Below are positions 20,247 to 30,187 of a stretch of 64,000 bases of DNA, one piece after another. Positions within the stretch are counted from its first letter, which is position 1; each line of letters starts with the position of its first letter. The DNA is from Arthrobacter sp. ES3-54. Lineage in GTDB: Bacteria > Actinomycetota > Actinomycetes > Actinomycetales > Micrococcaceae. The notes beneath the pieces were generated by a model. The model made no database searches. It worked only from the letters and a program-made list of their open reading frames with translations, and was not told where the DNA came from. A program made the translations under genes and the position numbers. Location: positions 1 to 64,000 of the forward strand of contig NZ_JAQFIF010000005.1 of the NCBI RefSeq assembly GCF_029504395.1, in the 5' to 3' direction.

Positions 20247-20275
20247 TTCATGGTTACCGCCAGTGTCCCTAGGAT
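20247..20275 (+). promoter_or_regulatory. Sigma-A-like promoter of the quinone reductase gene
   Basis: TTCATG (20247-20252) and TAGGAT (20270-20275) are separated by 17 bp, giving a start near 20282 and a leader of about 40 nt that contains the AAAGGAG ribosome site. It lies in the 180-bp gap after the desaturase gene, where nothing else was recognised. Confidence 0.5.
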
Positions 20276-20324
20276 GGACCCAGGGACCGGGACAGACTTT
20301 CCCGCCCGGAAAAGGAGCCACATG

Positions 20325-21287
20325 ATGCACGCAATCGTCGCCCGCCAGGCCGGGGGTCCCGAGGTCCTGGAGCTCGACAAAACAGCCCGCCCCGTTCCCG
20401 GGCCGGGCCAGCTGCTCGTCAAGGTCGCCGCCGCGGGCGTGAACTTCATCGACACCTACAAGCGCAGCGGCATCTACAAGGTCAGCTACCCCTTCACGCC
20501 CGGCTCCGAGGCCGCCGGCACCGTGGAGGAGGTCGGCGACGCCGTCACCGGGTTCGCTCCCGGCGACCGGGTGGCCACGGCCGAGGGCGCTGACTGCTAC
20601 GCCGGCTATGCACTCGTCGACGAGGACAAGGCCCTGCCGGTTCCCGACGGCCTGGACGACTTCACCGCCGCGGCCCTGCCGCTGCAGGGCGTGACGGCTC
20701 ACTACCTCATCAACTCCACCTTCAAGGTGGAGCCCGGCCACACGGTCCTGGTCCACGCCGGCGCCGGCGGCGTCGGGCTCCTGATGATCCAGCTGCTCAA
20801 GGCCAAGGGCGCCCATGTCATCACCACCGTGTCGACGGACGAGAAAGAGCAGCTGGCCCGCGACGCCGGGGCCGCCCACGTACTGCGCTACGACGGTTTC
20901 GCCGCGCGGGTCCGGGATTTGACCAACGGCACCGGCGCTGACGTGGTGTACGACGGCGTCGGAAAAGACACCTTCGACGCCTCCCTGGCGTCGCTGCGCA
21001 TCCGGGGCATGCTGGTGCTCTTCGGCGGAGCGTCCGGCCCGGTCCCGCCGTTCGACCCGCAGCGGCTCAACGCCGGTGGCTCGCTGTACCTCACGCGGCC
21101 GACCATGGGCCACTACCTGCGCGACGCCCGGGAACGCCGCTGGCGCTCCGACGAAGTCTTTGCCGCCGCCGCCGAGGGCAGCCTCAAGGTCCGGATCGGC
21201 GCCCGCTACTCCCTCGCCGAGGCAGCCCGTGCCCACGATGACCTTGAACAGCGCCGCACCACCGGCAAGGTCATTCTGGTCCCCTAG
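20325..21287 (+). CDS. NADPH:quinone oxidoreductase, zinc-independent MDR family
   Basis: The 320-aa medium-chain dehydrogenase/reductase has the GroES-like N-terminal half and an NADPH-binding half with HAGAGGVGLLMIQL. It lacks the catalytic zinc cysteine pattern, so it belongs with quinone reductases (QorA type), which reduce quinones or other electrophilic carbonyls. Two adjacent ATGs (20322 and 20325) follow AAAGGAG; the second has the better spacing. It is followed after 65 bp by the NRPS gene on the same strand, but no functional link is evident. Confidence 0.9.
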   Translation: MHAIVARQAGGPEVLELDKTARPVPGPGQLLVKVAAAGVNFIDTYKRSGIYKVSYPFTPGSEAAGTVEEVGDAVTGFAPGDRVATAEGADCYAGYALVDEDKALPVPDGLDDFTAAALPLQGVTAHYLINSTFKVEPGHTVLVHAGAGGVGLLMIQLLKAKGAHVITTVSTDEKEQLARDAGAAHVLRYDGFAARVRDLTNGTGADVVYDGVGKDTFDASLASLRIRGMLVLFGGASGPVPPFDPQRLNAGGSLYLTRPTMGHYLRDARERRWRSDEVFAAAAEGSLKVRIGARYSLAEAARAHDDLEQRRTTGKVILVP

Positions 21288-21352
21288 GCCGCACGGTCCC
21301 CTAAGCCGCACGGCAACACCATCCGTTCATCTCCTGCAGGGACAATGCGCCA

Positions 21353-24300
21353 GTGACCGAGCAACGACTGACCCCGAGTGAAGCCCCCGACGCCGGTACG
21401 GTGCAGAGTCTTCCCGCAACCCGCGCCACCGTCTACGAGCCGCAGTTGCCGGGCGCACTCTCCGCCCCGGCGGAGCGGACGCTCATCGACATCCTCCGCG
21501 ATACCGCCTCCCGGTTCCCGGATGCTTCCGCCCTCGACGACGGCCACCGCTCGCTCAGTTACGCCCAGCTCATGGGCGACGTCCGGGCAACCGCGAGGAA
21601 TCTGCACCTCGCCGGGCTGGGTGCCGGAGACAAGATCGGCGTCCGGATCCCGTCCGGCACCAACGAACTCTACGTCTCGATCCTGGCGGTAATGCTGGTC
21701 GGTGCGGCCTACGTCCCGGTGGACGCCGACGATCCGGATGAGCGGGCCAAACTGGTCTTCGGCGAGGCCAGGGTGGCCGGCATCCTCCGCGCCGGCGGGA
21801 AGATCGTCACGGACAGCAACCACCCCCGGCCGTTCCCCGGCGCCAGGCCGCCCGGCCCCGACGACGACGCGTGGGTCATCTTCACGTCCGGCTCCACCGG
21901 CACACCCAAGGGCGTCGCGGTCCAGCACCGCTCGGCCGCCGCGTTCGTGGACGCCGAGGCCCGCATCTTCCTGCAGGGCGATCCGGTGGGCCCGCAGGAC
22001 CGGGTGCTGGCCGGCTTGTCCGTTGCCTTCGATGCCTCCTGCGAGGAAATGTGGCTCGCGTGGCGCCACGGTGCCTGCCTTGTTCCGGCACCCCGGGCGC
22101 TGGTCCGGACCGGGATGGACCTGGGCCCCTGGCTCATCAGCCACGGCATCACCGTGGTCTCCACCGTCCCCACGCTCGCCGCGCTCTGGCCCGTGGAATC
22201 GCTGGAAAGCGTCCGGCTGCTCATCTTCGGCGGGGAGGCGTGTCCGCCGGACCTGGCCGAGCGGCTCGCCGTCGAAGGACGCGAAGTATGGAATACCTAC
22301 GGGCCCACCGAGGCCACCGTGGTTGCGTGTGCCGCGCGGCTCGGCGCGCCCGGCCCCGTCCGGATCGGCCTGCCGCTGGATGGCTGGGACCTCGCCGTCG
22401 TCGACGCCGATTCGCTGCCCGTCGCCGAAGGCGAGGTGGGCGAACTGATCATCGGCGGTGTGGGGCTGGCCCGGTACCTTGACCCGGTCAAGGACGCGGA
22501 AAAATACGCCCCCATGCCGTCCCTGGCATGGCCGCGCGCCTACCGCTCCGGCGACCTCGTCAGGTACGAAGCAGCAGGCCTCATCTTCCAGGGCCGCGCC
22601 GATGAACAGGTCAAGCTCGGCGGCCGCCGGATCGAACTCGGAGAAATCGACGCCGCCCTGCAGTCGCTGCCGGACGTCGCCGGCGCCGCCGCCGCGGTGC
22701 AGACCACCGCGGCCGGCAACCAGATCCTGGTCGGCTACCTGGCCGCAGTATCGGGCCGGGACATCGACCTCGCGGCCGCGCGCGAACTGCTGGGCGAGAG
22801 CCTGCCCGCGCCCCTCATCCCGCTGCTGACGCTCGTTGATTCGCTGCCGACCAAGACCAGCGGCAAAGTGGACCGCCATGCCCTGCCCTGGCCGCTCAGC
22901 GGAACAGGAGCTGCCGAGGCCGCAGGTGCCCCGCTGAACCTGCCCGATGACGCGCAGTGGATCGTGGAACAGTGGAGCGCCGTGCTGGGAAGCCCGGTCA
23001 CCAGCCTCGACGCCGATTTCTTCGCCTACGGCGGCGGCTCGCTGGCCGCTGCACAGCTCGTATCCGCCCTGCGCGTCCGCTACCCCACCATCACGGTCGC
23101 CGATATCTACGCGACACCCCGGGTGGGCGCCCTGGTGGACGAGGCGCGGCAGTCACTCCCGGAGGGCGGAATGATCGCTGCCCAGGAGCGCACCGTCCGG
23201 CCCACCGCGCGGAAGTCCCAGGCCTTCCAGACGCTCCTTGGCGTTCCCCTGCACATCCTGGTCGGCATGCGCTGGCTGACCTACCTGATGGCCGCCAACA
23301 ATCTCCTGGCCGCCTTCGCCGGATTCAGCGCCGCGCCGACCATCTCGTGGTGGTGGGTGGGCGCGTCCTGGCTGGTCTTTGTCAGCCCGGCCGGGCGGAT
23401 GCTGATCTCCGTTGCCGCCGCCCGCCTCCTGCTCCGCAACGTCGTGCCCGGCACGTATCCACGCTCCGGGCGGGTGCACCTCAGGCTCTGGCTCGCGGAA
23501 CAGATCCAGGACCTCGCCGGCGCCATCAGCCTGGCCAGCGCGCCCTGGGTGCCCTACTACGCCAAGGCGCTCGGCGCGAAGATCGGCGAGAACGTCCAGC
23601 TGCACTCGCTCCCGCCCGTCACCGGGCTGCTGTCCCTGGGCGCCGGATCCAACATCGAGCCTGAAGTCGATCTGTCCGGCTGGTGGATCGACGGCGACCG
23701 CGTCCACATCGGCGCCATCCGGATTGGCGCCGGCGCCAGCGTCGGAGCCCGCAGCACGCTCATGCCGGGTGCCACCGTGGGTGCCGGGGCGCAGGTGGAG
23801 CCGGGCTCCGCGGTGATCGGGAAGGTCAAGGCAGGGCAGCTGGTGGCCGGGTCACCGGCCGAGCGCCGCGGCAAGGCGCGGCATTCGTGGCCGGACTCCC
23901 CGCCCGAGCACCGGCTGATCGGCCGGCTGTGGTTCGCGGGCTTCGCCGCGGCATCCGCCGTGCTGGCGCTCATCCCCTATGTCTCCGCCGCCGTCGCGGC
24001 CTTCGTGATTTTCGCGTTCATCCAAGGCAGCTCCTCCCTGCCCGCGGCCCTGCCCGGCATCGTGCTCTCGATCCCCCTGGCGGCGCTGGCATGGTTCCTG
24101 ACCAACCTGCTGCTGATCCTGGCCACGACGAGGCTCCTCAGCGTCGGCCTCGCAGAAGGCTACTACCGGGTCCGGAGCCGGATCGGATGGCAAGTTTGGG
24201 CGACCGAGCGCGTTCTGGACCTGGCCCGGGATCTGCTGTTCCCGGTCTACGCCAGCCTCTTTACGCCGGTCTGGCTGCGGCTCCTCGGCGCGAAGGTCGG

Positions 24301-25333
24301 CCGCAACGTGGAAGCCTCGACAGTGCTGCTGATTCCGCGCATGACCACCGTGGGCGAAGGCGCGTTCCTGGCCGACGACACCATGGTGGCGTCCTACGAA
24401 CTCGACGGTGGCTGGATGCACATAGCCCCGGCCAAGATCGGCAAACGGTCCTTCCTGGGCAACTCGGGCATGACGGCGGCCGGGCGCAACGTGCCCAAGA
24501 ATTCCCTCGTCGCGGTCTTGTCCGCGACGCCGGCCAAGGCAAAGTCCGGCACATCGTGGCTCGGCAGCCCGCCCGTGCGGCTGCGGCGCACCGCCATCGC
24601 CTCGGACGACACGCGGACCTACCAGCCGCCCCGGAAGCTGAAGGTCGCGCGCGCCCTGTGGGAGCTGTGCCGCTTCGTCCCGGTCATGCTGACGGTCGCA
24701 ATCGCCGTCGGCGTCATGCTCGCGTTCGACGCGATGGCGACCCTCTTCAACTACGGAATCGCCGCTCTCCTGAGCGGGGTGGTGGTCCTGCTTGCCGGGG
24801 CCACGGCGGCGGGCAGTGCCGTAGTGGCCAAGTGGCTGCTGGTGGGCCGCATCCACCCCGGCGAGCACCCGCTGTGGAGCTCCTTCATTTGGCGGAACGA
24901 AGTGGTGGACACCTTCATTGAGATGGTCAGCGCCCCGTGGTTCGCGCGCGCTGCCACCGGGACACCGGCGCTCGTGTGGTGGCTGCGGGCACTCGGCGCG
25001 AAAATCGGTGCGGGAACCTGGTGCGAAAGCTACTGGCTGCCCGAGGCGGACCTTGTCACCCTCGGCAGGAACTCGACCGTCAACCGCGGGTGTGTCGTCC
25101 AGACCCATCTGTTCCATGACCGTGTCATGAGCATCGACACTGTTACTCTCGATGACGGAGCCACCATGGGGCCGCACGGCGTCATCCTGCCGCAGGCCAG
25201 GATCGGCAGCGGCGGCACGGTGGGGCCGGCGTCCCTCGTCATGCGGGGCGAAACCGTCCCTGCCGGGACGTACTGGATGGGCAATCCGGTCAGCCCGTGG
25301 GACGGGCCCGCACCGCCCGCCAGGCCCCTGTAG
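21353..25333 (+). CDS. Membrane-bound single-module NRPS of the Pls/PosA type
   Basis: The 1326-aa protein has an adenylation domain (about 30-510; motifs TSGSTGTPKGV, NTYGPTEAT, KLGGRRIELGEID, KTSGKVD), a carrier domain with phosphopantetheine Ser563 in GGGSLAA, and a C-terminal half with three pairs of hydrophobic segments (about 635-690, 855-930, 1105-1165) alternating with left-handed beta-helix-like soluble domains. This is the architecture of epsilon-poly-L-lysine synthetase, in which A-T is followed by a six-span membrane part with three tandem catalytic domains. An Asp in FDAS fits alpha-amino acid activation; a Glu shortly after could favour a basic residue. There is no thioesterase. 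Start GTG at 21353. The product is unknown. Confidence 0.85.
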   Translation: MTEQRLTPSEAPDAGTVQSLPATRATVYEPQLPGALSAPAERTLIDILRDTASRFPDASALDDGHRSLSYAQLMGDVRATARNLHLAGLGAGDKIGVRIPSGTNELYVSILAVMLVGAAYVPVDADDPDERAKLVFGEARVAGILRAGGKIVTDSNHPRPFPGARPPGPDDDAWVIFTSGSTGTPKGVAVQHRSAAAFVDAEARIFLQGDPVGPQDRVLAGLSVAFDASCEEMWLAWRHGACLVPAPRALVRTGMDLGPWLISHGITVVSTVPTLAALWPVESLESVRLLIFGGEACPPDLAERLAVEGREVWNTYGPTEATVVACAARLGAPGPVRIGLPLDGWDLAVVDADSLPVAEGEVGELIIGGVGLARYLDPVKDAEKYAPMPSLAWPRAYRSGDLVRYEAAGLIFQGRADEQVKLGGRRIELGEIDAALQSLPDVAGAAAAVQTTAAGNQILVGYLAAVSGRDIDLAAARELLGESLPAPLIPLLTLVDSLPTKTSGKVDRHALPWPLSGTGAAEAAGAPLNLPDDAQWIVEQWSAVLGSPVTSLDADFFAYGGGSLAAAQLVSALRVRYPTITVADIYATPRVGALVDEARQSLPEGGMIAAQERTVRPTARKSQAFQTLLGVPLHILVGMRWLTYLMAANNLLAAFAGFSAAPTISWWWVGASWLVFVSPAGRMLISVAAARLLLRNVVPGTYPRSGRVHLRLWLAEQIQDLAGAISLASAPWVPYYAKALGAKIGENVQLHSLPPVTGLLSLGAGSNIEPEVDLSGWWIDGDRVHIGAIRIGAGASVGARSTLMPGATVGAGAQVEPGSAVIGKVKAGQLVAGSPAERRGKARHSWPDSPPEHRLIGRLWFAGFAAASAVLALIPYVSAAVAAFVIFAFIQGSSSLPAALPGIVLSIPLAALAWFLTNLLLILATTRLLSVGLAEGYYRVRSRIGWQVWATERVLDLARDLLFPVYASLFTPVWLRLLGAKVGRNVEASTVLLIPRMTTVGEGAFLADDTMVASYELDGGWMHIAPAKIGKRSFLGNSGMTAAGRNVPKNSLVAVLSATPAKAKSGTSWLGSPPVRLRRTAIASDDTRTYQPPRKLKVARALWELCRFVPVMLTVAIAVGVMLAFDAMATLFNYGIAALLSGVVVLLAGATAAGSAVVAKWLLVGRIHPGEHPLWSSFIWRNEVVDTFIEMVSAPWFARAATGTPALVWWLRALGAKIGAGTWCESYWLPEADLVTLGRNSTVNRGCVVQTHLFHDRVMSIDTVTLDDGATMGPHGVILPQARIGSGGTVGPASLVMRGETVPAGTYWMGNPVSPWDGPAPPARPL

Positions 25334-25381
25334 GCCCGGCCTGCGCACGTCCACCAGCACCACAACCCGAAGGTCCGTTCA

Positions 25382-26803
25382 TTGAGCACCAGCGCACCAA
25401 GCAGCGGCGCCGCCACAGGCGGGGAAATCAGCCGGGAAATCAGCCGCGAGATCAGCCGGGCAACCGGCCCGGAAGCCGGCGCCCCGGACCCCTATATGCC
25501 GGGCCACGGGACCAATGCCTACCGCGTCACCCGGTATGAACTGAATCTGGACTACCGGGTCAGCAGCAACCGCCTTGCCGGGCACGCCGTCCTGCACGCC
25601 GTCACGCAGTTCCCGACGTCGGCGATCGTCCTGGACTTGGCCGGATTGCGGGCCACAAAGATCCAGCTCGACGGACGCCGGGTGCGCAGGTTCACCCAGC
25701 GGGCCGAGCAGCTCGTCATCTACCCCGATGGTCCGCTGCTCGCCAACGAGGCCTTCACGCTGGACATCCGCTACGAGGGCTACCCCGCGCCGCGCCGCGG
25801 CCTGTGGGGCGAAGTCGGCTGGGAAGAGCTCTCCGATGGTGTGCTGGTGGCCGGCCAGCCCAACGGCGCCGCCTCCTGGTTCCCCTGCAATGACCACCCG
25901 CGGGACAAGGCGAGCTACCTCATCACGGTGACCACCGACGCGAACTACCGGGCCGTGTGCAACGGCGTGCTGCTCTCCCGCACCAGCCGGGCCAGCCGCG
26001 AGACCTGGGTGTACGAGCAGGCCGAACCCATGGCCACCTACCTGGCAACGGTCCAGATCGGCCGTTACCAGCTCCTGACGCTCAATGCCGAGCGGCCGTC
26101 AGGGCACGTTCCGCAATATGTGGCAGTTCCCGCAGCGCTGGCGGCGGGCGCCCGGGCCGCCCTGGCCCGGCAGCCCGACATGATGCGGACCTTCACCAAC
26201 TGCTTTGGCCCGTATCCGTTCCCGGAGTACACCGTGGTGGTCACCGGCGACGTGCTGGAAATCCCGCTGGAAGCGCAGACACTGTCCATCCTGGGCCCAA
26301 ATCATTTGCGGCAGGACTGGGATTCGCAACGAATGATCGCCCACGAACTCGCCCACCAATGGTTCGGGAACTCGCTCACCACGGCGACGTGGAAGGACAT
26401 CTGGCTGCACGAGGGCTTCGCCTGCTACGCGGAATGGCTCTGGTCTGAAGAGGCCGGCATCATGTCGGTGGCGGGCCGCGCCCGCGCCGCCTGGCGCAAG
26501 CTCTCCGCTGCCCCGCAGGACCTGATGGTAGGCGACCCCGGCCCGGAGCTGATGTTTGACGACCGGGTCTACAAACGCGGAGCCCTGGCCCTGCACGCAC
26601 TGCGGGTTCGCTGCGGCGACCTCGCGTTCTTCGCCCTGCTGCACGACTGGACGGACCGCTTCCGCCACGGCACGGTGACCACTGCCGACTTCATCGTCGC
26701 GGCCGCTCACACGACCGGCCTCGACGCAGAGGCCCTGCTGCACCCCTGGCTGTTCGAACACGCCCTCCCGCCGCTCCCGCAGCCAGCACCGCCCCGACCC
26801 TGA
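25382..26803 (+). CDS. M1-family zinc metallopeptidase (short form)
   Basis: The 473-aa protein has the zinc site HELAH (321-325) with Glu344 in the HEGFA segment, the HExxH-x18-E pattern of M1 aminopeptidases. The exopeptidase motif GAMEN is replaced by PLEAQ, as in a divergent M1 branch, and the large C-terminal helical domain of PepN is absent. No signal peptide is seen. The first 30 residues repeat EISR three times and are probably disordered. The TTG start at 25382 follows GAAGG. It lies 48 bp after the NRPS gene on the same strand and may be cotranscribed. It could trim or degrade the NRPS product. Confidence 0.88.
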   Translation: MSTSAPSSGAATGGEISREISREISRATGPEAGAPDPYMPGHGTNAYRVTRYELNLDYRVSSNRLAGHAVLHAVTQFPTSAIVLDLAGLRATKIQLDGRRVRRFTQRAEQLVIYPDGPLLANEAFTLDIRYEGYPAPRRGLWGEVGWEELSDGVLVAGQPNGAASWFPCNDHPRDKASYLITVTTDANYRAVCNGVLLSRTSRASRETWVYEQAEPMATYLATVQIGRYQLLTLNAERPSGHVPQYVAVPAALAAGARAALARQPDMMRTFTNCFGPYPFPEYTVVVTGDVLEIPLEAQTLSILGPNHLRQDWDSQRMIAHELAHQWFGNSLTTATWKDIWLHEGFACYAEWLWSEEAGIMSVAGRARAAWRKLSAAPQDLMVGDPGPELMFDDRVYKRGALALHALRVRCGDLAFFALLHDWTDRFRHGTVTTADFIVAAAHTTGLDAEALLHPWLFEHALPPLPQPAPPRP

Positions 26804-26828
26804 GGGAAGGACTGCTCTGACGAACGCG

Positions 26829-27599
26829 CTAGGGCAGGACCGCGACGGCGACGGCGGCCACGAGATCCGCGGGCAGTCCTGTCTCTGCCGGCGCCAGGTC
26901 CCGGAGCCCGGCACGGCCGTCCACGTTCGTGCCCAGCACGTCGAGGGTGTCCGGGGCCGTCTGCAGCCCCGTGCCCAGCATCTTGAGCCATGCCTCTTTG
27001 CGCGCCCACAGCCGTGCCCGGCCCCGCAGCAGGGAGATGCCGTCCAGCCCGGCGAGGTGGAGTTGCTCCGCCGCGGTCAACACGACGTCGTCGAACCCAT
27101 CGAAGTCCGCCCGGGCCGGATCCTCGACGTCGATGCCCAGGCGCTGGCCCGGTTCCGGGTCCACGAGCCCGGCCAGAAGTGTCCAGCCGGCAGCGCGGGA
27201 CAGGCTCAGCAACAGCGGCACGGCCTCGCCCCGGAGCCGGTAGCCGGGCTTGCCGTGGGAGATGTCCGCGCCGGTGCCGCAGCGTGGACAGCTGTACCAG
27301 GCGGTGAGGTCCGACGCCGGGACGCCGAGAAGGCCGGCGGCGAACCGCCGCTGCGCGAGCCGTCCGGCGAGGAACTCCTGCCGGGTCCGCGGGGTCATGG
27401 CCCGGGCCCGCTCGAGCTCGGCCCCGTCCAGCAGGGAACGCGAGTCGCGTTCCAGCTCGGACGCAGAGGCGGTTTCCGCCCCGGGCCCCGGCACACTGGG
27501 ATCTCCGGGCACACCGGGGACCCCAGGAGCCCCGGGAACGCCGGGAGCCCCGGGAACGCCAAAGGGCGGGCAGGCACGCACAACCAGGTGTGATGCCAT
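26829..27599 (-). CDS. 4'-phosphopantetheinyl transferase, Sfp-like
   Basis: Transfers phosphopantetheine from CoA to carrier domains. The 256-aa protein shows the Sfp signatures GIDVED (magnesium-binding acids) and WARKEAWLK, plus a CPRCG...HGKP segment. Residues 14-40 form a collagen-like Gly-Pro-Val/Ala repeat, encoded by GC-rich repeats at 27480-27565 and unlike other transferases. ATG at 27599 has AAAGGGG upstream. It lies 44 bp after pheT on the same strand and converges with the M1 gene. The nearby NRPS carrier domain is the obvious substrate candidate. Confidence 0.88.
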   Translation of the reverse strand: MASHLVVRACPPFGVPGAPGVPGAPGVPGVPGDPSVPGPGAETASASELERDSRSLLDGAELERARAMTPRTRQEFLAGRLAQRRFAAGLLGVPASDLTAWYSCPRCGTGADISHGKPGYRLRGEAVPLLLSLSRAAGWTLLAGLVDPEPGQRLGIDVEDPARADFDGFDDVVLTAAEQLHLAGLDGISLLRGRARLWARKEAWLKMLGTGLQTAPDTLDVLGTNVDGRAGLRDLAPAETGLPADLVAAVAVAVLP

Positions 27600-27643
27600 G
27601 ACCCGCCCCTTTCAGCTCATCAGCGCTGTCGCCAGCGCAGTTC

Positions 27644-30187
27644 TCAGCGCTGTACCGCTCCGAAGCGTTCGTGGGCAGCGGCAACGGCACCTTCACGCGC
27701 TGCTGAGGCCTCGTCAGCCGTCAGGGTGCGGTCGTTGGCGCGGAAGCGCAGGCTGAACGCCAGCGACTTCTTGCCCTCCTCGATGCCCTTGCCCGCGTAG
27801 ACGTCGAACAGGGCGACGTCTTCGAGCAGCTCGCCTGCGCCTTCACGCAGGGCGGTGAGCACCTCTTCCGCCGGGACGTCCTGCGGCACCACGAGGGCCA
27901 CGTCCTGGGTGGCCACGGGGTACGTCGAGATGTGCCGCGCCACGATCACGTCGGCAGCAGCCTCGAAGAGGGCGTCGGCGTTCAGTTCCAGCGCCACGGA
28001 ACGGGCCGGCATGTCATGTGCCGCCAGCAGCTTCGGGTGCAGCTCGCCGGCGTAGCCCACTACTTCGCCGGTGCGCAGCTCAAGCTGTGCTGCCCGGCCC
28101 GGGTGGAAGGCCTGGTGCCGGCCCTGCGCGACCAGGAGTTCGACGCCGAGCACGTCGCCGGCGATCCGGGCGATGTCCACCGCATCCGCCCAGTCCCAGG
28201 CCCGCGGGGTGTGGCCCGGGGCGACGGGCGAGTCGTGCCCCGTGAGCACGGCGGCGAGGTGCAGCGGCTGGTCCGGGACGCCGTCGTACAGGCCGTCCAG
28301 TACCTCGTCGCTGGGCTTGACGCCGAGCGACGGGATCGTGGCGGTGCCAAGCTGGTCGCCAGGCAGGAACACGAGCCCGGCCTCGAAGAGGGCGAGGTCG
28401 CGGAAGCCGCGGGAGTGGTTGCGCTTGGCAACCTCGATCAGGCCCGGCAGGATGGAAGTCCGCAGGAAACCGTGCTCCTCGCTGATCGGGTTGGCCAGCT
28501 TGAGGGCCTTGCGCTCCGTGCCCTCGGTGGGGACGCCAAAGGTGTCATTGGCGGCCTTGGAGACGAACGGGTAGGCCAGCACCTCGGTGAGTCCGGCGTC
28601 GGCGAGGGCCTGGATCAGGCGGCGGCGCTGCTGCTGGATGCGGGTCAGGCCACGGCCGGGGGGCGCCACCGGCAGGGTCGCCGGGATCTGGTCGTAGCCG
28701 ACCAGACGGGCGATTTCCTCGGTGAGGTCGTCCTTGGTCTCGAGGTCGTGGCGCCAGCTCGGGGCGGTCACCGTGTAGCCGTTGCCTCCCATGGCAACGA
28801 CGGCGCCGAGGTCTTCGAGCGAGGTCAGGATCTGCTCTTCGGTGAAGTCGATCCCGATCCGGGCCGCCGCGTACTCTGCGGGCAGTTCGATGGTGACGGC
28901 GTCCGGCGCGGTCCCGACGTCGGTCCCGGCCTCGTCGGCCGTTCCGCCGGCGAGTTCGACCAGCAGGTCCACCACGCGCTGGGCGGCGACATCGGCCACC
29001 TGCCAGTCCACGCCGCGTTCGAAGCGTTTTGACGCCTCGGACGGCAGCTTGTGGCGGCGGCGGGCGCGTGCGATCGAGACCTCGTCGAAGTGCGCGGCCT
29101 CAACCAGGACGTTCGTGGTGGCGTCCGACACCTCGGTGTGGGCGCCGCCCATGACGCCGGCGATTCCGATGGGCCCGGATTCGTCCGTGATCAGCAGATC
29201 CTCGACGTCGAGGGTGCGCTCCTTGTCGTCCAGGGTGGTGATCTTCTCCCCTGCGGTGGCGCGCCGGACGACGATGTCGCCGGCCAGCTTGTCCAGGTCA
29301 TAACAGTGGTTCGGCTGCCCGAGCTCGAGCATGACGTAGTTGGAGATGTCCACCGGCAGGGAGATGGACCGGATGCCGGCGAGCCGGAGCCGGGAGGCCA
29401 TCCACGGCGGGGTGGGCCGGGTGGCATCTACTCCGCGCACGGTGCGGGCCACAAAACGGTCGCAGCCGGGCGTGCCGTAGATGGGGGCGTCATCGTTGAG
29501 CTTGACGCCGTAGCCGCCGGACAGCGCCTCGGGGACCTGGACCTTGGACGCCGGGTCGGTGAACACGGTGCCGGTGGCGTGCGCGTATTCACGGGCCACA
29601 CCGCGGATGGAGAAGCAGTAGCTGCGGTCAGGGGTGACGTTGATTTCCGCGGCCTGGTCGTAGAGGCCCAGCAGTTCCATGGCGTCGGTGCCCAGTTCCG
29701 GGTCGAGGCCGATCCGGGACAGCACCAGGATGCCGTCGTGGTCCTCACCGATGCCGAGTTCCCGGACGGAGGCGATCATGCCCGCCGAGAGGTGCCCGTA
29801 GGTCTTGCGCGCGGAGATGTGGAAGTCGCCCGGCAGCACGGCGCCCGGGAGGGTCACCACCACCTTGTCGCCCTCCACGAAGTTGTGGGCGCCGCAGATG
29901 ATGCCCTGGACGCCTGAGGGATCGATGCCGTCCCCGGTCAGGGTCTGCTGCTGGCCCTCGGGGACAACCCGGACCTGGCACCAGTTGATGGTCTTGCCGT
30001 TGGTCTGGGGTTCCTTGACGATGCTGAGCACCTGGCCCACCACGATCGGACCCTGGACGGAATCCGTGGGGCGGTGGACTGCTTCTTCTTCGAGCCCGAC
30101 CTTGACGAGCTCGGCCATGACGTCTTCGGCCGTTGCTTCGGCCGGTACCTGCGCGAATTCGCGCAGCCAGGAAAGTGGGATACGCAC
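27644..30187 (-). CDS. pheT: Phenylalanyl-tRNA synthetase beta subunit
   Basis: Large subunit of the alpha2-beta2 enzyme. The 847-aa protein has the N-terminal EMAP-like tRNA-binding fold (about 40-150), B3/B4 editing region, B5 domain, and a C-terminal ferredoxin-fold anticodon-binding domain (YPVATQDVALVV onward). The start is GTG at 30187, 2 bp after the pheS stop, so the subunits are coupled. No terminator was seen before the phosphopantetheinyl transferase gene. Confidence 0.97.
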   Translation of the reverse strand: MRIPLSWLREFAQVPAEATAEDVMAELVKVGLEEEAVHRPTDSVQGPIVVGQVLSIVKEPQTNGKTINWCQVRVVPEGQQQTLTGDGIDPSGVQGIICGAHNFVEGDKVVVTLPGAVLPGDFHISARKTYGHLSAGMIASVRELGIGEDHDGILVLSRIGLDPELGTDAMELLGLYDQAAEINVTPDRSYCFSIRGVAREYAHATGTVFTDPASKVQVPEALSGGYGVKLNDDAPIYGTPGCDRFVARTVRGVDATRPTPPWMASRLRLAGIRSISLPVDISNYVMLELGQPNHCYDLDKLAGDIVVRRATAGEKITTLDDKERTLDVEDLLITDESGPIGIAGVMGGAHTEVSDATTNVLVEAAHFDEVSIARARRRHKLPSEASKRFERGVDWQVADVAAQRVVDLLVELAGGTADEAGTDVGTAPDAVTIELPAEYAAARIGIDFTEEQILTSLEDLGAVVAMGGNGYTVTAPSWRHDLETKDDLTEEIARLVGYDQIPATLPVAPPGRGLTRIQQQRRRLIQALADAGLTEVLAYPFVSKAANDTFGVPTEGTERKALKLANPISEEHGFLRTSILPGLIEVAKRNHSRGFRDLALFEAGLVFLPGDQLGTATIPSLGVKPSDEVLDGLYDGVPDQPLHLAAVLTGHDSPVAPGHTPRAWDWADAVDIARIAGDVLGVELLVAQGRHQAFHPGRAAQLELRTGEVVGYAGELHPKLLAAHDMPARSVALELNADALFEAAADVIVARHISTYPVATQDVALVVPQDVPAEEVLTALREGAGELLEDVALFDVYAGKGIEEGKKSLAFSLRFRANDRTLTADEASAAREGAVAAAHERFGAVQR

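Follow-up and report, generated by a model that had tools for sequence, protein, structure and literature searches.

We found that a 64,000-nucleotide stretch of DNA from Arthrobacter sp. ES3-54 (hereafter the window; contig NZ_JAQFIF010000005.1, positions 1 to 64,000) carries a three-gene module that very probably makes epsilon-poly-L-lysine, consisting of a Pls-type synthetase, a downstream M1 metallopeptidase that would degrade the polymer, and a convergent 4'-phosphopantetheinyl transferase (PPTase) that would activate the synthetase (Table 1). The system is of a known kind and is widespread in relatives, and what it adds is modest: the PPTase as a third member in Micrococcales, the presence or absence of the whole unit at one site, and a candidate catalytic histidine. 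A first-pass annotation, made from the letters alone, had proposed that the trio makes, activates and protects against a small cationic isopeptide; of this, the parts resting on the synthetase, its pocket and the pls-pldII arrangement stood, whereas protection is known from the Streptomyces albulus homologue only. Papers are cited below by PMC number, each for excerpts of its text.

A Pls-family synthetase with a lysine pocket

The extent of the trio (21353-27599), the 48 bp gap between pls and the M1 gene, and the convergent orientation of the PPTase gene, 25 bp beyond M1, all agree with the table of open reading frames. The Pfam and TIGRFAM scan that the first-pass annotation had called for matched AMP-binding, PP-binding, TIGR02353, M1 and ACPS domains across the three genes. 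On the synthetase, Pfam (E<=0.001) returned only AMP-binding (residues 49-374, E 1.4e-59), PP-binding (535-596) and Hexapep (789-821), that is, one adenylation (A) and one thiolation (T) domain with neither a condensation nor a thioesterase domain. The terminal domain of this class of nonribosomal peptide synthetase (NRPS), whose lack had been named beforehand as a refutation, was found far above cut-off: TIGR02353, the Pls/PosA family model, matches residues 625-1313 with 707.4 bits (cut-off 423.1, E 1.9e-212), values that exclude a chance match. These results agree with the annotated Pls-like A-T NRPS with a membrane C-terminal half.

The best PDB relative of the synthetase is 7wew, the A domain of epsilon-poly-L-lysine synthase (641.7 bits, E 2.2e-191); the chains that follow are other NRPSs at ~1e-111 and weaker, the next of them scoring 377.8 bits. 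The ten pocket residues, taken from an alignment of 38 synthetases, spell DAESIGTVVK, the same code as that of 7wew read off the search alignment. Counting the window, 36 of the 38 share this code, and the exceptions are PosA, the delta-poly-L-ornithine synthetase of Acinetobacter baumannii, and a diaminobutyrate-type paralogue from the window's own genome. As a control on the reading of the pocket, the PosA row gives DMEHNGTVSK, exactly the ornithine code printed in PMC10522769. The same paper places Ala at pocket position 2 in lysine enzymes, Met in PosA and Phe in the poly-diaminopropionate and poly-diaminobutyrate (PDAP/PDAB) enzymes, and its PosA mutagenesis connects position 2 with chain length; in the window pocket, positions 2 and 3 are Ala and Glu, as for epsilon-poly-L-lysine synthetase. 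Because the code equals that of 7wew, the PosA control is correct and position 2 is Ala, L-lysine is the predicted monomer. The first-pass annotation had left the monomer unknown, a reading that was dropped once the PosA control returned its published code, and the specificity prediction it had suggested gives a pocket of the lysine-activating type, not of a non-amino-acid type.

A membrane polymerase with one candidate active site

Hydropathy, sequence matches and an AlphaFold2 model agree on three hydrophobic pairs alternating with beta-helix-like domains, as had been described from the letters. The first pair reaches Kyte-Doolittle means over 19 residues of 1.39 and 1.46, and the other two pairs 2.13-2.43; a cut-off of 1.6 misses the first pair, which is revealed by lower values and by the model. 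The model (residues 601-1326, 34 sequences; mean predicted local distance difference test score (pLDDT) 83.1, predicted template modelling score 0.87) is a threefold repeat in which a pair of membrane helices is combined with a left-handed beta-helix, with long helix pairs at ~635-693, 854-929 and 1094-1164, that is, six membrane helices; the end of C1 is poorly modelled (residues 823-843, pLDDT <50). At the sequence level, portions of all three domains (C1, C2 and C3) resemble proteins with a left-handed beta-helix. Foldseek, with 94 matches to the model at E<=0.001 (best E 6.9e-6), likewise pointed to hexapeptide acyltransferases. A structure aligner gave its best Z, 8.0, for C3, which is middling on the tool's own scale; since the Z values are <=8.0, the fold assignment also leans on a profile match of C3 to the acetyltransferase 8vr6 (E 4.2e-10), in which QTH aligns to the YTH of 8vr6. 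The beta-helix fold is not new, because PosA has already been modelled with three left-handed beta-helices (AlphaFold; PMC10522769).

Within C3, Q1250, H1252 and D1256 are invariant both in the 38 rows and in 13 divergent members of lysine, ornithine, diaminobutyrate and A-less types. When the profiles of the three domains (38 rows) are aligned with one another, the residues facing His1252 are Trp777 (C1) and Tyr1015 (C2), and those facing Q1250/D1256 are Ser775/Gly781 (C1) and Ala1013/Gly1019 (C2), so a histidine occupies the acyltransferase position in C3 only; the one conserved histidine of C1, H751 (36/38 rows), lies elsewhere. Such a histidine is catalytic in hexapeptide acyltransferases. 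We infer that the polymerase may have a single active site with His1252 as its base. The idea may not be new: Kito et al. 2013, which PMC4668381 cites, reportedly studied mutations of the three tandem Pls domains. Compared with hexapeptide N- and O-acyltransferases (8vr6; maltose and galactoside acetyltransferases), the window enzyme shares the fold of its C domains and the position of the C3 histidine; unlike them, it is a membrane-borne fused pseudo-trimer, and a carrier-bound aminoacyl thioester would replace acetyl-CoA.

The downstream M1 metallopeptidase

The second gene encodes Peptidase_M1 and M1_N domains (Pfam) with a zinc motif, HELAH-18-E, at residues 321-344. We compared it across 40 stretches hand-picked from match lists for the genus and family (20 of them from the wider family list), in which HExxH-18-E is kept in 38/38 M1 proteins, the window's included, and in which M1 stands behind pls in 37/40, the three exceptions being paralogues (L069, L071 and L089). 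Elsewhere in the order, the 20 best-scoring stretches from other families all show the arrangement, and so do 73 of a set of 80 named actinobacterial loci picked by similarity to a Streptomyces Pls; two of the seven misses in that set (L127, L133) fall at a contig end. Across 248 genomes of the order, Pls was found in 70 (E<=1e-200) and M1 in 67 (E<=1e-90), all 67 within the 70, and M1 lies directly downstream of pls in 65 of the 70. Because two M1 genes visible in the stretches from other families (G326 = L113 and G420 = L123) escaped this search, a miss in it does not establish absence; one genome, G281, remains without. Among the viral contigs scanned, none yielded a relative of M1.

An M1 peptidase beside a Pls-type synthetase, with the zinc peptidase as polymer degrader, matches the published pls-pldII operon of S. 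albulus, in which the two genes overlap by 4 bp (PMC4361855); a pls-peptidase operon also occurs in Corynebacterium variabile (PMC8117764), and in S. albulus repression of pldII by CRISPRi lowers polymer tolerance (PMC9223678). By analogy with these systems, M1 is a probable epsilon-polylysine-degrading enzyme. The equation of PldII with M1 rests on the annotation of pls neighbours in two plasmid records (Kitasatospora and Streptomyces), where the gene behind pls is labelled an M1 metallopeptidase, and not on the PldII sequence.

The transferase as a probable third member

The PPTase scores 42.7 bits with PF01648 (ACPS; cut-off 25) and carries GIDVE at residue 155 and WARKEAWLK at 198 in 256 aa; these correspond to GxDxE and WxxKEAxxK, which we take, with a length about twice that of AcpS, to be the marks of the Sfp type. 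The annotated Sfp-type transferase convergent with M1 is thus upheld by PF01648 and both motifs. The genome has one further PF01648 match, in a 118-aa, AcpS-sized frame, which leaves this PPTase as the only Sfp-type one found. It is present in 28 of the 40 hand-picked stretches (27 convergent behind M1, one upstream of pls) and lies within 4 kb of pls-M1 in 27 of the 70 pls genomes of the order, from nine families (26 convergent, one upstream of pls). In one congener (L052; G047:C1:3438685-3450937) ~12 kb separate M1 from the PPTase, and the unit can thus be split by insertion. Our search of the open-licence literature found no published report of a link between a PPTase and pls; excerpts of PMC4361855 mention transferases merely as a gene-ontology class.

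Presence and absence of the whole unit at one site

Within the genus, 51 of the 61 genomes have a Pls match (E<=1e-60). The ten congeners that lack pls have neither M1 (E<=1e-20) nor PPTase (E<=1e-5), six hand-picked pls-bearing controls have both, and pheT is present in all 16 congeners searched. PF01648 genes number two in each of the six and one (open frame 118-178 aa) in each of the ten, and on this count the ten survive with no Sfp-type transferase in evidence. Its absence alongside pls and M1 in these ten congeners makes the PPTase look like more than a neighbour; a single deletion of the whole stretch would also give this joint absence.

The empty site is the same in 10/10 pls-lacking congeners, a quinone-reductase-like gene facing pheT with none of the trio between them. 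At seven sites ~83-124 bp, with a common GC-rich inverted repeat, separate the match ends, and at three ~1.5-1.6 kb separate the flanks; one of the longer sites (L204:260-1599) holds an IS3-family transposase pair. In a pheT tree built from 28 rows (10 lacking the unit, 16 carrying it, 2 outgroups), absence takes four changes, three of them forced by well-supported branches. The complete five-gene block sits at the same place in 7 of the 20 wider-family stretches, more of which show the block without a PPTase match, and because of this shared place across the wider family, losses are a simpler reading than gains. Joint loss of three genes fits a single functional unit, and one recombination between the flanks would also produce it.

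Distances across 23 five-gene loci follow those of pheT (r 0.923 for Pls, 0.864 for M1 and 0.835 for PPTase; 0/999 permutations as high). GC content at third codon positions is 0.881 in pls, 0.863 in M1 and 0.856 in PPTase, against 0.893 and 0.888 in the flanks. A recently acquired cluster was considered and rejected, since the trio resembles its flanks in this content and its distances track pheT. A 1.35 Mb 'plasmid' record of Arthrobacter sp. StoSoilB13 (L093, NZ_AP024648.1) carries pheT with the whole pls block and is a chromid or a mislabelled chromosome.

Setting of the locus

The flanking genes lie outside the module (Table 1); NCBIfam quinone reductase models match the left one below cut-off. 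No promoter or terminator was predicted in 21150-27800, and the window gave no match to Rfam at gathering thresholds and no tRNA.

Table 1. Features of the pls locus and its flanks, in window coordinates (amino acid numbers refer to the respective product)
Feature	Position	Strand	Basis
pls, predicted epsilon-poly-L-lysine synthetase	21353..25333	+	GTG start, 1326 aa; TIGR02353, 7wew, pocket code DAESIGTVVK
pls domains: A, residues 36-516; T, 535-596 (Ser563); membrane polymerase C1-C2-C3, 625-1313			
Pocket-residue stretch	22031..22867	+	Residues 227, 228, 231, 270, 291, 293, 315, 323, 324, 505; aligned columns
Ser563 codon, phosphopantetheine attachment site	23039..23041	+	GGGS motif, 555-563; S563 unchanged across 38 rows
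C3 motif Q1250-T-H1252-LFH-D1256, candidate single polymerase active site	25100..25120	+	Conservation, profile alignment
pldII-like M1 metallopeptidase, probable epsilon-polylysine-degrading enzyme	25382..26803	+	TTG start, 473 aa; PF01433/PF17900; HExxH-18-E
Sfp-type PPTase	26829..27599	-	ATG start, 256 aa; PF01648
Quinone-reductase-like medium-chain dehydrogenase/reductase (MDR) oxidoreductase, left flank, outside module	20250..21287	+	PF00107 and PF08240 above cut-off
pheT, right flank, outside module	27644..30187	-	TIGR00472, 613.3 bits, cut-off 402.65

Comparison with known systems

The window resembles Pls and PldII of S. albulus in domain order, family model, lysine pocket and the same-strand peptidase directly downstream; however, the window has a 48 bp gap in place of that operon's overlap (PMC4361855), and it also has a convergent PPTase and a home between the quinone-reductase-like gene and pheT. 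C. variabile shares the Pls-peptidase operon, and the paper that describes it names Arthrobacter, along with other coryneforms, among genera with Pls homologues (PMC8117764); the main text of that paper does not contain the word phosphopantetheinyl, and its excerpts hold nothing on presence or absence at a fixed site. PosA is alike in its A-T-membrane layout, three left-handed beta-helices and QxHxxxD motif in C3, and unlike in its pocket code, at 32% identity over the full length. For Pseudarthrobacter sp. So.54, excerpts of PMC12025171 give an annotation label only, with neither experiment nor anatomy.

On contig 1, the window's own genome encodes a further TIGR02353 synthetase (704.6 bits, code DFECLSVVTK; L008:3522-10757; G000:C1, ~474521-481756), preceded by genes for a class-III aminotransferase and an aspartate kinase. 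A figure legend in PMC8117764 gives dat (diaminobutyrate transaminase) and ask (aspartate kinase) as neighbours of polydiaminobutyrate synthetases; the second locus looks like a poly-diaminobutyrate cluster by its gene content, and the organism may make two cationic polymers. A full-length, ~30%-identical paralogue is found in five congeneric genomes (G000, G014, G043, G050 and G051), all of which also have Pls.

Other relatives depart from the standard layout. In loci chosen for short frames (L227, L089, L225, L226, L228, L229 and L230), we observed a split system, in which a protein of 1036-1106 aa joins two to four tandem carrier motifs to the Pls membrane polymerase and has no A domain (7/7 loci; that of L089 scores 666.9 bits to TIGR02353). 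At L227:2041-10059 an SbnA-type diaminopropionate enzyme and the split polymerase are followed by an A-T protein, the pocket of which differs from the homopolymer codes, and a TauD-like dioxygenase; G145, a congener of the window, has two split-system copies. A different congener, G044, has an extra Pls paralogue (L069:2267-9586; 49% identical, code DAESIGTVIK, no M1). The genes directly behind it encode a dihydrodipicolinate synthase, which belongs to lysine biosynthesis, and an HGSNAT-like protein; this may be a pls operon that supplies its own lysine. Pls-type synthetases also occur on NZ_CP023152.1 and four other plasmids of Mycobacterium avium / intracellulare, at 58% identity over query residues 29-836 only.

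Alternative readings

Several observations weigh against an epsilon-poly-L-lysine module with three functional members. Synthesis of the product and its epsilon linkage are predictions, and C. variabile itself gave no detectable polymer, its Pls doing so only in a foreign host (PMC8117764), so such pls genes can be silent. The lysine code was found in 80/80 named loci; this count is biased, because one of the six search patterns (CEEMWLAW) contains a pocket residue. Five of these loci (L130, L131, L132, L135 and L137) have Pls without a downstream M1 despite at least 2.4 kb of DNA, and Rhodococcus opacus pROB01 has pls and no M1 within 6 kb; M1 is therefore not strictly required at the locus. 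A PPTase stands at three of the 80 (L164, L186 and L202), all Micrococcales, and therefore looks like a feature of that order. Finally, M1 has no visible export signal or membrane segment (hydropathy maximum 1.38 overall and 0.33 in the first 80 residues, no hydrophobic segment, with the translation start uncertain), and PldII is reported outside the membrane.

The same enzymes could instead make a short oligolysine, cell-bound or attached to the envelope, with a stress or surface role and not that of a secreted antimicrobial, M1 then being a cytosolic recycling or length-setting enzyme. The missing export signal speaks for this, as do the immediate neighbours, which include neither a transporter nor a regulator, and the slow divergence of Pls, nearly that of pheT (median distances 0.234 and 0.204, respectively), together with a chromosomal position that many genera of the family share; most antibiotic clusters are unlike this in divergence and in place. 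We regard such a product as unlikely, however, given that the C. variabile Pls, 51% identical to the Streptomyces Pls, yields 26-35-mers in Streptomyces coelicolor (PMC8117764).

It is similarly improbable, in our judgement, that the PPTase is a bystander that belongs to the pheT transcription unit or serves other carrier proteins, lost with pls mechanically through one recombination between the conserved flanks. Its position would suit a bystander (it follows pheT by 44 bp, shares its strand and faces pls-M1), pls-M1 stands without it outside Micrococcales, and the genome's second carrier-bearing synthetase also needs a PPTase. The link to pls is strong but not exclusive, because at E<=1e-5 a PPTase match is missing from 28 of the 70 pls genomes and present in 20 of the 178 that lack Pls. 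Nevertheless, the drop from two PF01648 genes to one in the ten pls-free congeners, and the PPTase's nearness to the pair in 27 of 70 genomes, nearly always convergent, argue for the PPTase as a partner of pls.

Polymerisation of another diamino acid, such as ornithine or diaminobutyrate, is very improbable: pocket codes can mislead, NRPSpredictor2 having called PDAPs beta-lysine (PMC4668381), but at position 2 the window enzyme shares Ala with lysine enzymes and has neither Met nor Phe. Equally remote is a general housekeeping aminopeptidase placed downstream by chance, for although the closest solved relative of M1, the zinc metalloprotease 6a8z, has no known polylysine link, M1 occurred without Pls in none of the 248 genomes of the order (E<=1e-90) and gave no match (E<=1e-20) in any of the ten pls-free congeners.

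Discussion

For the epsilon-poly-L-lysine module, we envisage that the convergent PPTase would load phosphopantetheine on Ser563 of Pls, after which the A domain, judging from its pocket, would adenylate L-lysine and transfer it to the phosphopantetheine arm. The membrane half, with its three fused beta-helix domains, would work like one trimeric hexapeptide N-acyltransferase, coupling the epsilon-amine of one lysine to a lysyl thioester, repeatedly and without a thioesterase, with His1252 in C3 as the likely base. M1 would trim or degrade the cationic polymer, as has been shown for PldII in S. albulus. We advance a wider proposal only tentatively, and lean slightly towards doubt about it as a whole: that the Micrococcales unit is a portable three-gene system with its own activator, the cell's only Sfp-type transferase serving such polymers; that strains switch the whole unit at a fixed site, probably through recombination between the conserved flanks; and that the polymerase is a fused trimeric N-acyltransferase with a catalytic histidine in C3 only and one carrier-fed active site.

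Epsilon-polylysine is a natural food preservative, made industrially, typically with Streptomyces albulus. The PPTase partner suggests a choice for co-expression when Micrococcales Pls is produced in other hosts, and the lone C3 histidine offers a single residue on which to pose the question of isopeptide bond formation. With Pls in 51/61 genomes, and mostly at one place in the fetched stretches, the system is a near-core trait of a soil genus and not an exotic cluster, and close relatives with and without the unit are natural pairs for probing its natural role directly.

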